This document shows, piece by piece, positions 50,244-61,961 of a stretch of DNA of 64,000 bases. The notes under the pieces were generated by a model. That model ran no database searches and had not been told where the DNA came from. It worked only from the letters and a program-made list of their open reading frames with translations. The DNA comes from Micropruina glycogenica (lineage in GTDB: Bacteria; Actinomycetota; Actinomycetes; Propionibacteriales; Propionibacteriaceae), in assembly GCF_900289045.1 (NCBI RefSeq), contig NZ_LT985188.1, forward strand, positions 744,001-808,000. The letters are read 5' to 3'. The position numbers were made by a program, and so were the translations under genes. Numbering within the stretch: position 1 is the first letter of the stretch; each line of letters begins with the position of its first letter.

Positions 50244-52112
50244 GTGCCGGGGCTGATCAACGAAGAAGACCTGGCCACCGTGCGCGAACGCAGCCGCATC
50301 GAAGACGTGGTGGGGTCGTACGTCACGTTGCGTCCGGGCGGCGGGGGAGCTTTGGTGGGGCTCTGCCCCTTTCACGACGAGAAGACGCCCTCGTTTCGGG
50401 TGACACCGACCCGCGGCTTCTACTACTGCTTCGGCTGCAACAAGGGCGGCGACGTCATCGGCTTCGTGCAAGAGATCAACAACTCCAGCTTCGTCGAGGC
50501 GGTGGAGTTTCTGGCCGACCGGGTGGGCGTGCAGTTGCGGTTCACCGACGGCGGCGGCGGCAACCGGGTCGAGCCGGGGCTGCGGTCGCGCATTCTCGAG
50601 GCGAACCGGCTGGCGGCGGAGTTCTTCGCCGCCCAACTGGGCACCCCCGAGGCAGTCGCCGGGCGGCAGTTTCTGGCCGAGCGCGGCTTCGACCGCGACG
50701 CTGCCGAGCACTTCGGCGTCGGCTTTGCCCCGATGGGTGGACGTGACCTGGCCAAACACCTGCGCGGCCACAAGTTCAGCGACGACGAACTGGTCAAGGC
50801 CAGCCTGATTCGCGAGGGCGGCGGCTGGGACTACTTTCAGGGCCGGCTGGTCTGGCCGATTCGTGACGCCGGACGGTCGGTGCTCGGCTTCGGCGCCCGG
50901 CGACTGTTCGACGACGACCGCATGCCCGCCAAGTACATCAACACCCGCGAGACCCCCGTCTACAAGAAGTCGAACGTGCTGTACGGGCTCGATCTGGCCC
51001 GGCAGAACATCGCCAAGAAGAACCAGGCGGTGGTGGTCGAGGGCTACACCGACGTGATGGCGGCGCACCTGGCGGGCGTCGACACTGCCGTGGCGTCGTG
51101 CGGAACCGCCTTCGGCGACGACCACGCCCGGCTGCTGTCGCGGTTGATCGGGTCGTCCGACGCGCTGAAGGGCGAAGTGGTGTTCACCTTCGACGGTGAC
51201 GCCGCCGGGCAGGCCGCGGCCCTGAAGGTGTTCGCCGGTGACCAGCACTTCATTTCGCAGACCTATGTGGCCATCGAACCCACCGGGCTCGACCCGTGCG
51301 ACCTGCGCATTCAGTCGGGCGACGCGGCGGTGCGCGAGCTGGTCGCCCGGCGCGAACCGCTGTACCGCTACGTGATGGCCAACACCATCGCCGGTTTCGA
51401 CCTCGACCGCGTGGACGGACGGCTCGAGGCTCTGCGCGCCGCCGCTCCGCTGGTGGGCAGCGTGCGCGACAACTCCCTGGTCAACGGTTACATTCACGAG
51501 CTCGCCAAGATGCTCGGCAGCGACGTCGACGAGGTGCGTCGCGAGGTGGCCCGTGCGGGGCGGCGCAAGGTGGCGCCGTCGTCCGATCGACACCGCGAGC
51601 CGGAGCCGCCGCCGCCCGACGAGCAGCCCGCCCTGGGGTTGCCCATGCCCAACCCGCGCGACCGAGGCCTCGAGGTGGAGCGCGGCACGTTGCGGCTCAT
51701 GGTGCGGGCGCCCGAGGCGTTCGAGCAGGGCTGGAACGACACGGCCGTCGACGACTTCACCCACCCCGCCTACCGGGCGATCTTCGAAGCGATCCTCGCC
51801 GCCGGAACGCCGGCGAGCGATTGGCCGCAGCCGGTGGTGCAGGCGGCGGCCGACCCCACCGCGGTGCAGGTCATCGCGGCACTGGCCACCGAGCCGCTGA
51901 TGCGCCCGGCCAGCCCCACCTACGCGGCCGAGTATGTGGCCAAGCTGAAGCTGTTGAGCGTGTCGCGCACCATCGCCAACCTGAAGTCGAAGTTGCAGCG
52001 CACCAATCCGGTCGACGATCAACCGAGCTACAACCGCATGTTCGCCACCCTGCTCGAGTTCGAGAAGCAGCGCCGTGAACTCACCGAACGGGCGGCCGGC
52101 CCGGCTTTGTGA
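50244..52112 (+). CDS. dnaG: DNA primase
   Basis: 622 residues. N-terminal CHC2 zinc finger with Cys41, His44, Cys62 and Cys65, the TOPRIM core with VVVEGYTDVMAAH and FTFDGDAAGQAA, and a C-terminal helicase-binding domain. It makes the RNA primers at the fork. GTG at 50244. A Pro-rich linker with REPEPPPPDEQPAL precedes the C-terminal part. The RpoD gene that follows dnaG in some bacteria is replaced here by a small sigma factor. Confidence 0.95.
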   Translation: MPGLINEEDLATVRERSRIEDVVGSYVTLRPGGGGALVGLCPFHDEKTPSFRVTPTRGFYYCFGCNKGGDVIGFVQEINNSSFVEAVEFLADRVGVQLRFTDGGGGNRVEPGLRSRILEANRLAAEFFAAQLGTPEAVAGRQFLAERGFDRDAAEHFGVGFAPMGGRDLAKHLRGHKFSDDELVKASLIREGGGWDYFQGRLVWPIRDAGRSVLGFGARRLFDDDRMPAKYINTRETPVYKKSNVLYGLDLARQNIAKKNQAVVVEGYTDVMAAHLAGVDTAVASCGTAFGDDHARLLSRLIGSSDALKGEVVFTFDGDAAGQAAALKVFAGDQHFISQTYVAIEPTGLDPCDLRIQSGDAAVRELVARREPLYRYVMANTIAGFDLDRVDGRLEALRAAAPLVGSVRDNSLVNGYIHELAKMLGSDVDEVRREVARAGRRKVAPSSDRHREPEPPPPDEQPALGLPMPNPRDRGLEVERGTLRLMVRAPEAFEQGWNDTAVDDFTHPAYRAIFEAILAAGTPASDWPQPVVQAAADPTAVQVIAALATEPLMRPASPTYAAEYVAKLKLLSVSRTIANLKSKLQRTNPVDDQPSYNRMFATLLEFEKQRRELTERAAGPAL

Positions 52113-53590: not shown

Positions 53591-53666
53591 TCCCCTGTAG
53601 CTCAATTGGCAGAGCGTCGGACTGTTAATCCGTAGGTTCCTGGTTCGAGTCCAGGCGGGGGAGCCA
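53591..53666 (+). tRNA. tRNA-Asn (anticodon GTT)
   Basis: 76 nt including an encoded CCA (53664-53666). Acceptor TCCCCTG pairs with CGGGGGA, D-arm GCTC...GAGC, anticodon loop CTGTTAA, T-arm CCTGG-TTCGAGT-CCAGG. All stems close apart from one T-T pair at the base of the anticodon stem. Its 3' end is a classic integration site and the DNA beyond it changes character. Confidence 0.97.
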
Positions 53667-55451: not shown

Positions 55452-55700
55452 GCGGCAGAAGAGGGCGGTCGTGCTCGGGAGGCCGAAGCCGAAGGCTACC
55501 CTCGCACACCGCGGCAGAAGAGGGCGGTCGTGCTCGGGAGGCCGAAGCCGAAGGCTACCCTCGCACACCGCGGCAGAAGAGGGCGGTCGTGCTCGGGAGG
55601 CCGAAGCCGAAGGCTACCCTCGCACACCGCGGCAGAAGAGGGCGGTCGTGCTCGGGAGGCCGAAGCCGAAGGCTACCCTCGCACACCGCGGCAGATGAGG
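55452..55700. repeat. 59-bp tandem repeat, four perfect copies plus a partial
   Basis: Identical units at 55452, 55511, 55570 and 55629, then 12 bases of a fifth (55688-55700, one change). The unit has GAGGGCGG near its start and CTACCCTC near its end, which pair to form a hairpin. Not a CRISPR: nothing separates the units. Related sequence is at 53973-53998 and, diverged, 61962-62020. The rest of 55373-55903 has no gene. Confidence 0.9.
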
Positions 55701-58677: not shown

Positions 58678-59193
58678 ATGAGTGGTCCCCAGAGTCCCAG
58701 CCCGGATGCTCGGCCAAGCGGTGATGGGCTGCCTCGTCAGAATCGCCTCGCCAGTGTCGGCAATTCAGGTGAGCAGCTCACGGCGCATGTTCCTGGTGAA
58801 GAGATCCAGGTCGAGCAACTCGATCAGAATGTGAATCAGGTTGTCGTCCGAGTGACGCTCGACAAACTGCAAGGGCACTTGGAGAGCTTCCAGCGCGGGA
58901 TTGAGGCCCGGTATCTCCTTCAGCGGCGGATATCGGAGTCGCTCGGCCTTCTCGGCATAGGTGTTGCACTTGTGGTCCCGCTCTTCACGGCAACATTCGT
59001 CCCAATCTGGGGACTGTCGGCAGACACTCTGAAGGGTGCCTGCGCGGTACTCGGCTTCGTCTTCCTCGCTGGCGCTTTGGTTCGGGTTGTACAGGCAGTC
59101 CACAGCCGGCTGGCGAAAATCCCGGACCACAACGGGGTAGATCAGACGGTCGAGGCGATCCGCTTCAAGCGGGACTTCCCGACATCCAGCTGA
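58678..59193 (+). CDS. Two-TM membrane protein, unknown
   Basis: 171 residues. Cytoplasmic first 80 residues with a coiled stretch (VRVTLDKLQGHLESFQRGIEARYLLQRR), then two close hydrophobic segments (SLGLLGIGVALVVPLFTATFV near 88-108, and ACAVLGFVFLAGALVRVV). ATG at 58678 with GGGAGGG just upstream. It follows the synthetase gene by 254 bp with no gene between. A membrane effector is a possible role, from its size and context. Confidence 0.6.
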   Translation: MSGPQSPSPDARPSGDGLPRQNRLASVGNSGEQLTAHVPGEEIQVEQLDQNVNQVVVRVTLDKLQGHLESFQRGIEARYLLQRRISESLGLLGIGVALVVPLFTATFVPIWGLSADTLKGACAVLGFVFLAGALVRVVQAVHSRLAKIPDHNGVDQTVEAIRFKRDFPTSS

Positions 59194-59417: not shown

Positions 59418-61139
59418 TCAACGGCAGTCGAGTTCAGCCAAGAGTGATGCCATCTCGCGAGGGATATCCTCAGCACGGTGTTCCAAGGCGAGCTTCCGGG
59501 ACGACACCGTTCGGAGCTTGCGGGTCGCCAGGAGGCCATTCAGCGTAGACAGAAGCTCTTTTGCATTGACCCGGTACCACCGGAAGGACTGAATCTTCCA
59601 ACGCTCATCGAAGTCCTTCTGTGCCCGCTCAATTACGGTGGCTAGATCCTCTGCTGACGGTGCGTCTCGGCGATGCTCGGCCGCGAACTGCGCGGCGGCG
59701 TGGTACCGCTGATTCTCCGCGCATTCGTCGAGCAACACTTCCACCGCTGGCACGCTCGCACCGCTCACCCGTGAGATCACCTCGGGCGACAGGAGGTAGC
59801 TCTCGAGTTCCTTCTTCTCCCAGACGTGCACGTTAACGCCAGAGGCCTCTAGAGTGCTCACAAGTCGCGCCACCTGATTCTCAGAGTGGTAGTCGCGGTC
59901 AAGGATCACCGAAATGGTGACTGCACCCGGTAGGAGTTCCTTGGTGAGCCAGGCGAATGCGGGCACGTGATCCCATGACGAAAAACCGCCCAAGGGAATG
60001 ATCGCCATGCCATCCTCTGTCGCGACGCGTTCGAGCCCGAGCTTCTGCGCAAGAATCCTCAGGATTCTGATGTCTTGGCCCTCGACGAATACCACGTTCG
60101 ATGCCCTCAGTGCTTTTGCCAGTCGAAGGTTGAAACCCGACCCGATCGCTTGGCTGAGTGTCTCGAGCTGCGCGTCCGAACTAGCTCGCCGCGCCGACGT
60201 CGTCGACTTGTCCACTAGCGCCACCAGTGCGGCGTCGACCTCCGCGGCGATCTCCGCAGAGTGGGTTGCCATGATCACCTGTTTGCCGCTCTGGTCGAGC
60301 AGCGCCACAAGGCGCCTCTGGAGGTCTGGGTGGAGGAACACCTCAGGCTCGTCGAGGACGAGAGTCGCGCAGTCCCGGGATCTGTACACGTGGTAAAGGA
60401 CCTGCAACCAGACCTGCACGCCGTCGCCGGCCCAGATGAGTTCCTTCGGGACGCGACTTCCGGCCTCGTGATAGAACACATCAAGGTACGCACCCTCGTC
60501 GTAGCGAAGGGTCGGGCGTTCCAGCTCCATGCCGCTGATCCATGGCGCTGACCACTCGACGAAGTCTGGCCAGTCGCCTTGCCTGGCAACCTGGTAGAGC
60601 TGATTGCGAAAGTGTCGACTTGCCACGCGCGACTCCACGCTCGACCTGACGTACTGCTCATCCCGGAGCGCTTCCGAGTGATCAACAGGGCTCAGAGGTG
60701 CAATGATCCCGAGACGGGGAAAGCATGTTCGTGCCTGTGTAGGGCTGGTGACTGGGTATCCATCACCACGCCGCAAGTAGAAGAACGGTTCCTCATCGGC
60801 GTCGCCATCCGGCCAAACGACGATCAGTTGGGAGCCGTTGTCCCAGGTGAGTTCAACGGTGGTCTCTTCCGACCCAAACTCGTGGCGCACGCTCTCTGCG
60901 AGCGCCGGGTAGTCCCGCAGGGTGGCTGGATAGCACTGATATGTCGCATCCCTGTGCTCACGGACCTGCGACGAGCGCCTGCTCCAGGCATGCCGAAGCA
61001 GCGTCTGGGACAGTCGGAGCGCCGTGAGCAGACTTGACTTCCCGGCATTGTTCGGCCCCATGAGATAAGCACCGCGGCGGAAACTGATCGAGTAACTCGA
61101 GAACGTGCGGTAGTTGCGCACCCTCAACGATTTCAGCAT
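59418..61139 (-). CDS. AAA-ATPase with TOPRIM domain (OLD/PARIS-like)
   Basis: 573 residues. The AAA_15/21 ATPase has Walker A GPNNAGKSS (28-36), Walker B TLVLDEPE (259-266) and an H-loop ATHS (291-294). A TOPRIM-like half follows: Glu353 in VFVEGQDIRIL, Asp414 and Asp416 in VILDRD, and WEKKELESYLL (440-450), as in OLD nucleases and in the AriA-AriB pair of PARIS fused in one chain. No UvrD partner (Gabija) is nearby. ATG at 61139; it converges with the 2-TM protein gene. Confidence 0.8.
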   Translation of the reverse strand: MLKSLRVRNYRTFSSYSISFRRGAYLMGPNNAGKSSLLTALRLSQTLLRHAWSRRSSQVREHRDATYQCYPATLRDYPALAESVRHEFGSEETTVELTWDNGSQLIVVWPDGDADEEPFFYLRRGDGYPVTSPTQARTCFPRLGIIAPLSPVDHSEALRDEQYVRSSVESRVASRHFRNQLYQVARQGDWPDFVEWSAPWISGMELERPTLRYDEGAYLDVFYHEAGSRVPKELIWAGDGVQVWLQVLYHVYRSRDCATLVLDEPEVFLHPDLQRRLVALLDQSGKQVIMATHSAEIAAEVDAALVALVDKSTTSARRASSDAQLETLSQAIGSGFNLRLAKALRASNVVFVEGQDIRILRILAQKLGLERVATEDGMAIIPLGGFSSWDHVPAFAWLTKELLPGAVTISVILDRDYHSENQVARLVSTLEASGVNVHVWEKKELESYLLSPEVISRVSGASVPAVEVLLDECAENQRYHAAAQFAAEHRRDAPSAEDLATVIERAQKDFDERWKIQSFRWYRVNAKELLSTLNGLLATRKLRTVSSRKLALEHRAEDIPREMASLLAELDCR

Positions 61140-61404
61140 GCAAGATTCCTAAGACGGGTTCTATTCGGTTCTGCCCGAATCCTAGGTTCCTAGTCCCGTG
61201 CGGCGGGCCGGAACCTAGAGTACTCTGCCTCGGTGGGCTCCAGCCGTCGAACTCACACGCTTGAGGGCCGGCTCTGACAGCTCACCGGCGCCCAGCCGGT
61301 CGGTACGACTAACCGCGAACTCCGCGGCAGAACCGCGCGTTCCGGGATGCGCCGCGGGTGCGCAGATCTCGCCCTATGCTGCAAATCCAGCTGAAGGGAC
61401 GGCC
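61140..61404. other. Gap with an inverted repeat
   Basis: No gene. CTAGGTTCC (61182-61190) and its exact complement GGAACCTAG (61210-61218) face each other across 19 bases, between the divergent AAA-TOPRIM gene and the NYN remnant. Could be an operator or a recombination scar; the DNA around it is otherwise featureless. Confidence 0.5.
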
Positions 61405-61614
61405 ATGGACGGCGGAGAACCGATTCGATCTGTGCTCTTTGTGGACTTCGACAACATCTTCAGCGACTTGGGAAAGCTGAACCGGGATGCGGCTGAAGTC
61501 TTTGCCGATCAGCCGAATCTTTGGGTTGGCTGGCTAGAGAGCGGCATGGGTGGCCGAACCGGGCCAAGGCGCTTCCTAGTGAAGAACATGTATCAGAGCC
61601 CTGCCGCCTATGGA
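61405..61614 (+). pseudogene. N-terminal remnant of a NYN-domain protein
   Basis: 70 residues from ATG 61405: VLFVDFDNIFSDLGKLN, with the catalytic Asp pair of NYN/PIN nucleases, then NLWVGWLE and RRFLVKNMYQSPAAYG. The remainder is replaced at about 61615-61622 by a gene fragment on the other strand. It is a broken nuclease gene. Confidence 0.7.
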
Positions 61615-61622
61615 ACGGCTCG

Positions 61623-61883
61623 CGCCCGGCTCGTGGAATGGCCCACATACCCGCCCGGGTTGACCACAAGGACCCGGTCGGCCAAGTCGATCTTCCGCAG
61701 ATGGAGTTCACTCAGCGCGGCCTTCTGCTCATCGGTGACTTTCTTGCTTGGTTCACGATGGCTGAACATGCCTGGTGCGACGACGAGGACACCGGCAAGA
61801 GTCAGGTCGCCGTTCGCTGCGAGCATGTCGCCCGCGAACCGGGTCGAGCCGCAGATGCAGACAATCTCTGGGCGGTTGGGCAC
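61623..61883 (-). pseudogene. Nucleoside 2-deoxyribosyltransferase-like fragment
   Basis: 87 residues from GTG 61883: EIVCICGSTRFAGDML, LAGVLVVAPGMFSH, LHLRKIDLADRVLVVNPGGYVGHSTSRA, the core of a phage-type deoxyribosyltransferase-like (DUF4406-like) family. It lacks its last ~15 residues and meets the NYN remnant tail to tail. Together the two mark a deletion or inversion. Confidence 0.65.
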
Positions 61884-61961
61884 GGAGGACCTTCGATCTC
61901 TTGGGCGCCTTCGCCCGAAGGCTATCCTGCCGTGCATTCATCGTCACGATCCAAGCCGGGA

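Follow-up and report, generated by a model that had tools for sequence, protein, structure and literature searches.

A single-chain ABC ATPase and TOPRIM protein on a predicted integrative element of Micropruina glycogenica, possibly a PARIS-like anti-phage protein

The window analysed here, a stretch of 64,000 nucleotides of Micropruina glycogenica DNA, encodes a single-chain protein, P0001, to which we give about an even chance of being a stand-alone, one-chain, PARIS-like anti-phage protein that would act by abortive infection and would cut RNA. Its general kind is ordinary, an ABC ATPase with a TOPRIM domain that is probably anti-phage, and its sequence looks divergent from those of known defence relatives. 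The PARIS-like assignment draws on the order of parts in the sequence and predicted model, in which intact ABC ATPase motifs are followed by a TOPRIM domain whose acidic residues are present and then by a helical tail, as in AriB and DUF4435 proteins. An integrative element as the site of the gene, the occurrence of relatives on megaplasmids and in viral contigs, and PDC-S39 and Mrr_cat neighbours are counted for a defence role of this type. Counted against it are a miss by the Pfam DUF4435 model, a Foldseek preference for OLD, a looser fit to AriB and a PtuA-like head.

The gene lies at 59418..61139 on the minus strand, as do all features of the protein given below, and is an ORF of 573 aa with an ATG start preceded, 7 bases upstream, by AGGA, which by eye is Shine-Dalgarno-like. 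The ABC ATPase head (residues 1-336; 60132..61139) matches Pfam AAA_21 (1.5e-19, 71.6 bits, above the cut-off of 27) and AAA_15 (4.2e-17, 63.3 bits, above the cut-off of 32.1), and its VIA matches include PtuA and AriA. It carries a Walker A motif GPNNAGKS (residues 28-35; 61035..61058; G28, N30, N31, G33 and K34 invariant in 13 aligned sequences), a Walker B motif LVLDEP (residues 260-265; 60345..60362; D263, E264 and P265 invariant in the 13), and an H-loop THS (residues 292-294, within ATHS 291-294; 60258..60266; H293 and S294 likewise invariant). The TOPRIM core (residues 337-451; 59787..60131), delineated by an AF2 model (pLDDT 91.5 for residues 337-573) and by hhalign to a set of DUF4435 proteins, contains a putatively catalytic Glu, E353 of VFVEG (60081..60083; 13 of 13 sequences), a DxD motif, D414-R415-D416 of LDRDY (59892..59900; D414 and R415 in all 13, D416 in 11), and an E-x-E motif, E444-L-E446-S-Y448 of KKELESYLL (59796..59810; E446 and Y448 in 12 of 13 each, E444 in six). 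The C-terminal part (residues 452-573; 59421..59786) is helical in the AF2 model and includes K527, a Lys in 11 of the 13. In the hhalign alignment the E-x-E motif aligns with an E-x-EN motif of DUF4435 proteins, and K527 faces a Lys of the same proteins. Every one of the 13 sequences, P0001 included, has K34, D263, E264, H293, E353, D414 and R415, and the AAA_21 and AAA_15 matches exceed what chance would give. The motif positions bear out the preliminary description, which had placed Walker A and B, an H-loop, a TOPRIM-like Glu and DxD, and WEKKELESYLL on one 573-residue chain.

The TOPRIM half and its helical tail resemble the AriB/DUF4435 component of PARIS more closely than they do OLD, on evidence that is mixed. 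Residues 337-573 (alignment A4) were compared with nine DUF4435 proteins (P0015 and L111-L118, with L116 trimmed to 262 residues; eight of the 53 plasmid records matched by P0015 were taken) and with a small and mixed set of seven OLD-type proteins (P2 Old, L119, the GajA-like L121, L032, L035, L036 and L043), both sets being trimmed to begin at the TOPRIM start for hhalign; for one family member, L019, the protein begins at an internal codon within a longer open frame. In these TOPRIM-only comparisons, the five close members align with the nine DUF4435 proteins at a probability of 97.2 (score 80.4, 179 columns) and with the seven OLD-type proteins at 29.1 (score 32.6, 71 columns). Column shuffles, 40 for each set, reach at most 19.4 with the DUF4435 set and 15.9 with the OLD set, and the reversed DUF4435 set scores 14.0. 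Leaving P0001 out, the other close members give probabilities of 97.5 with DUF4435 versus 17.3 with OLD, and each of the five close sequences taken singly scores higher with DUF4435 than with OLD, the probability against DUF4435 then being only 34.9 for P0001 and 12.9 for L019. For the 'far' group by itself the probability is 5.5 against DUF4435 and 15.8 against OLD, and for all 13 sequences jointly it is 96.6 and 86.0.

Motif spacing was counted between the leading Asp of DxD and the final Glu of E-x-E, and is 32 residues in P0001, 23-39 across the 13 sequences and 25-26 in the nine DUF4435 proteins. From DxD to the third motif, six OLD and GajA proteins have 72-123 residues (P2 Old 90, the GajA-type L121 72 with a motif chosen by eye, the four others 122-123; L119, with its third motif not placed, is excluded). 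After the third motif 127 residues follow in P0001 versus 43 in P2 Old. At E<=1 the Pfam DUF4435 model (PF14491) has no match among 14 family proteins (the 13 of alignment A2, which include P0001, and L135), and it matches all three positive controls (P0015, L115 and L117). The Pfam OLD-like_TOPRIM model (PF20469), which is only 67 positions long, gives weak matches in six of the 14 (P0001, P0010, P0013, L021, L030 and L135; best 0.0013), all of them below the cut-off of 23.2 bits, with 12.3 bits for P0001 and 19.7 for the best relative. A PDB sequence search with the A4 TOPRIM profile returned no match at E<=10. The comparison with OLD, AriB and DUF4435 profiles that the preliminary description had proposed favours DUF4435 by hhalign, for the five close members jointly and weakly for P0001 alone, and the Pfam models of neither family pass.

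A similar ambiguity is seen in the predicted fold. The full-length model (pLDDT 84.7, pTM 0.59) matches PtuA in VIA (9nnb_D, Z 23.5, rmsd 3.6, 301 residues aligned) and AriA (8v46_B, Z 17.9, rmsd 4.2, 261 aligned), with PtuA the better fit to the predicted ATPase head; Foldseek ranks TsOLD 6p74 at the top (5.7e-14). Because matches to the ATPase (residues 1-336) filled the VIA list of the full model, the TOPRIM part (residues 337-573) was folded alone, giving a model with pLDDT 91.5 and pTM 0.85. Its VIA matches include AriB (8ux9_A, Z 10.6, rmsd 6.8, 211 of 237 residues aligned; 8v46_D, Z 10.4, rmsd 6.3, 202 aligned) and OLD (6nk8_A, Z 10.3, rmsd 4.7, 168 aligned; 6p74, Z 10.3, rmsd 3.3, 135 aligned), so that the two are tied by Z, with AriB having the wider coverage and OLD the tighter fit. 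Both Foldseek matches of this model below 0.001 are OLD TOPRIMs (the best being 6njv, 9.3e-5).

The best PADLOC model for P0001 is one of the two fused AriAB models, PDLC02981 (2.1e-23, 80.9 bits), in a partial match covering positions 333-530 of 694. We have not counted this as membership because the OLD-type L036 (45.6 bits), the relatives P0010 and P0014 (69.1 and 73.9), the distant L130 (111.4) and four fused proteins of AAA_21 type (33-60) score in it too; no full-length PDLC02981 member was found in 396 genomes of one phylum, so the score is uncalibrated by a true member. For the other model, PDLC02982, the P0001 locus is absent from the matches in its own genome at 0.001, and four fused proteins score 414-582 bits. 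We note that the same genome has a second, fused AriAB-like gene (L137, genome C1 2712957-2713931; PDLC02982 1.8e-47), whose tail VIPGKQLL is by eye close to IVPGKELL in P0010 and whose adjoining ORF reads like a type I methylase; on a Paraburkholderia plasmid, the fused DUF4435 gene L111 lies behind another gene that carries a DUF4435 annotation.

On one side of P0001 are a RelA/SpoT-type synthetase, P0002 (57029-58423, plus strand; RelA_SpoT 1.9e-11), and a 171-aa protein with two hydrophobic stretches (the 2-TM protein), P0003 (58678-59193, plus strand), for which there is no Pfam match below 0.1 and no plasmid match. The synthetase has weak HEPN-type matches (HepT-like 0.0012) and an RNxxxH motif at its C-terminus. 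Matches spanning most of the synthetase occur on an Azospirillum plasmid and in one genome; in another genome the match is in two pieces with a stop. On the other side is a PADLOC phage-defence candidate PDC-S39, P0004 (62247-63980, minus strand; 3.7e-168), the frame of which begins past the window end and is 608 aa in the genome. A further neighbour is P0005, with Mrr_cat (Pfam). At 61400-61940, an NYN-type N-terminal fragment (plus strand) abuts a short nucleoside-deoxyribosyltransferase-like ORF (minus strand) by eye, the latter receiving no Pfam name. As had been described, P0001 converges with the synthetase and 2-TM pair, the 2-TM ORF ending at 59193 and the P0001 ORF at 59418, 224 bp apart, and no Gabija helicase adjoins it: Pfam finds neither a UvrD-like helicase nor a reverse transcriptase (OLD class 3, retron) among P0002-P0006, and both Gabija (OLD class 2) and class 3 OLD are rejected.

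Conservation of these neighbours is not seen elsewhere. Homologues of P0002-P0005 at 1e-3 are absent from 87 loci of P0001 relatives (83, together with L135 and L136, and L130 and L131), many of which are only distantly related and have just a few kb of flanking sequence. P0001 re-hits 70 of the 83, all but 13; nor is there a P0001 homologue at 1e-2 in the six loci of synthetase relatives. Among 84 ORFs of seven loci (the window region, L135, L003 and L016-L019) compared at 1e-4, only the P0001 protein is shared between loci. The sequences give no sign that P0001 depends on neighbour genes. Of the two modes that the preliminary description had allowed, acting alone is the preferred reading and acting with the synthetase and 2-TM pair is not supported, and the conserved pairing with the 2-TM gene that it had suggested looking for was not found in the 87 loci.

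To judge from its sequence, the P0001 gene sits in a tRNA-Asn integrative element of ~145 kb, extending from window position 53644 to genome C1 942590, and the window contains its left end. The left 22-bp end repeat (53644..53665, plus strand) is the 3' end of the tRNA-Asn gene (53591-53666), and a second copy, with 22 bases identical, is at genome C1 942569-942590. A 24-base pattern from the tRNA-Asn 3' end recurs at one other place in the genome when up to one mismatch is allowed, and nowhere when read backwards. From their translations, read without a family search, the ORF at 941206-942432 is tyrosine integrase-like and that at 838320-843941 relaxase-like. The measured cargo stretches have a G+C content of 0.61-0.64 vs 0.69-0.70 in the first 54 kb, and third-position G+C is 0.73 in the P0001 gene vs 0.90 in the ORF at 50244. 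A 59-bp tandem repeat is present at 55452-55700 (4.2 copies, 99% matches).

P0001 has one copy in its 3.84-Mb genome and few close relatives. None was found at E<=1e-20 in 395 other sampled genomes of the phylum, with three candidates scored per genome among the matches listed. In the order, a three-row alignment at 1e-25 matches two genomes out of 390 others, with few candidates scored per genome among the matches listed: L135, which has 43.5% identity to P0001 over 577 residues, and L136, which is partial and of the 'far' kind. Relatives at about 28-33% are carried by a Cupriavidus megaplasmid (99% of the query) and by a second one (78%), where the open frame has 487 residues. A three-row alignment also finds relatives in viral contigs, including L016-L018, which fall in the same range of identity (the best 80 of 87 loci, many of which match the ATPase part alone); viral scans with P0001 as single query and with a fused DUF4435 protein as query found none, nor did a search of a phage collection. 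The best PHROG match of P0001 is phrog_4747 (1.2e-26), its best stretch covering 140 of 610 positions. A distant ATPase-TOPRIM relative, L130:7138-8913, in which the first TOPRIM motif is VIEDKKED, comes from a genome of the phylum and adjoins DpdE-like (1e-210), DrmMI-like and Mrr-like genes, a setting that fits defence.

Three other explanations are weighed here. P0001 could be a stand-alone DNA nuclease of OLD class 1 type, in which an ATPase-regulated TOPRIM domain nicks or degrades DNA, and although we consider this unlikely it is the strongest of the three. It would account for a two-domain plan in a single gene, class 1 OLDs being described as single genes (PMC10568477), for the OLD structures at the top of Foldseek with both the full model (6p74) and the TOPRIM domain (6njv), for a VIA Z that ties with AriB, and for the weak OLD-like_TOPRIM matches in six of 14 members. 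However, that model stays below its cut-off in all 14, the hhalign score is 32.6 with OLD against 80.4 with DUF4435, DxD and the E motif are not far apart in P0001 as they are in OLD, and fewer residues are aligned by VIA than with AriB. The preliminary description had offered an OLD-class nuclease or a fused PARIS protein, and the second is the better of these, with profile and spacing in its favour, the DUF4435 model against it and the fold tied; OLD applies in a broad sense only, cut-off and layout both speaking against it. Since one defining test of each failed, P0001 is filed neither as PARIS nor as OLD. A possible but tentative proposal, somewhat short of even, is that it represents a distinct lineage on integrative elements, prophages and megaplasmids, outside the Pfam DUF4435 model and both fused AriAB models scanned, which would combine a PtuA-like head with an AriB-like, RNA-cutting TOPRIM domain and bridge PARIS-type and stand-alone proteins.

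A role apart from defence, in the upkeep of a mobile element or in the cell cycle, appears improbable. An archaeal OLD-family ATPase reportedly acts in the cell cycle and apparently not against viruses (PMC12796447), and the P0001 gene is itself in an integrative element, but its rare and scattered occurrence in the sampled genomes of phylum and order, with few candidates scored, argues against such a role, and the relatives in viral contigs and one relative beside DpdE- and DrmMI-like genes fit defence cargo. Least credible by far is a multi-gene system that P0001 would form with its two facing genes, those of the RelA/SpoT-HEPN-like synthetase and the 2-TM protein. The genes converge at 224 bp and share a common lower-GC stretch, but the pairing that such a system predicts in independent genomes is absent from both the 87 loci of relatives and the six synthetase loci, and for want of a partner homologue in the former it was rejected.

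A plausible scenario for the PARIS-like, single-chain protein comes from PARIS itself, in which AriB is described as a Toprim tRNase and which is occasionally one polypeptide (PMC12409363; PMC9122126). An AriA hexamer is reported to hold AriB until phage proteins release it, whereupon AriB forms a dimer and tRNA-Lys is cleaved; the proposed mechanism uses two metals, and in toeprinting the E26A mutant fails (PMC12409363). By analogy we infer the oligomer, trigger, substrate and defence role of P0001: its ATPase would oligomerise with ATP and keep the TOPRIM domain idle until a signal of infection switches the protein, the TOPRIM domains would then pair, with E353, D414, D416 and E446 holding metal ions, and the pair would cleave RNA, with tRNA the likeliest substrate, halting translation and phage growth. 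One polypeptide would thereby both sense and cut.

Two questions raised in a review of the OLD family are whether an ATPase-TOPRIM protein that stands alone suffices for broad defence, and whether AriAB encoded by a single gene acts differently from class 1 OLD (PMC10568477). As a lone chain whose nuclease half looks AriB-like, P0001 puts these questions directly to the test: it has a single gene with clear candidate residues, and its readings predict different outcomes, the cutting of RNA versus that of DNA. If the PARIS-like reading is true, the AriB-like range is wider than the Pfam DUF4435 model detects.

Among known systems, PARIS AriA/AriB and fused AriAB (AAA_15/AAA_21 with DUF4435) likewise have an ABC ATPase, a compact TOPRIM domain and a helical tail with an aligned Lys, but P0001 differs in having no DUF4435 Pfam match, a partial match to PDLC02981, none to PDLC02982, and a head nearer to PtuA. 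With class 1 OLD proteins (P2 Old, TsOLD) it shares a single gene, the ABC ATPase and TOPRIM domains and a tied VIA Z, whereas in P2 Old 90 residues separate DxD from the third motif and 43 follow that motif, compared with 32 and 127 in P0001, which also has the lower score with the OLD profile. Gabija GajA (OLD class 2) has the ABC ATPase and TOPRIM in common, although P0001 is without a UvrD-like gene among P0002-P0006. The best PHROG match, phrog_4747, is a family with no assigned function, matched over the 140 of 610 positions given above. IbfA (HEC-04) is, by its published description, also a single ABC ATPase and TOPRIM protein and is reported to interfere with phage, but it is 518 aa long and lies in an operon (PMC12111858).
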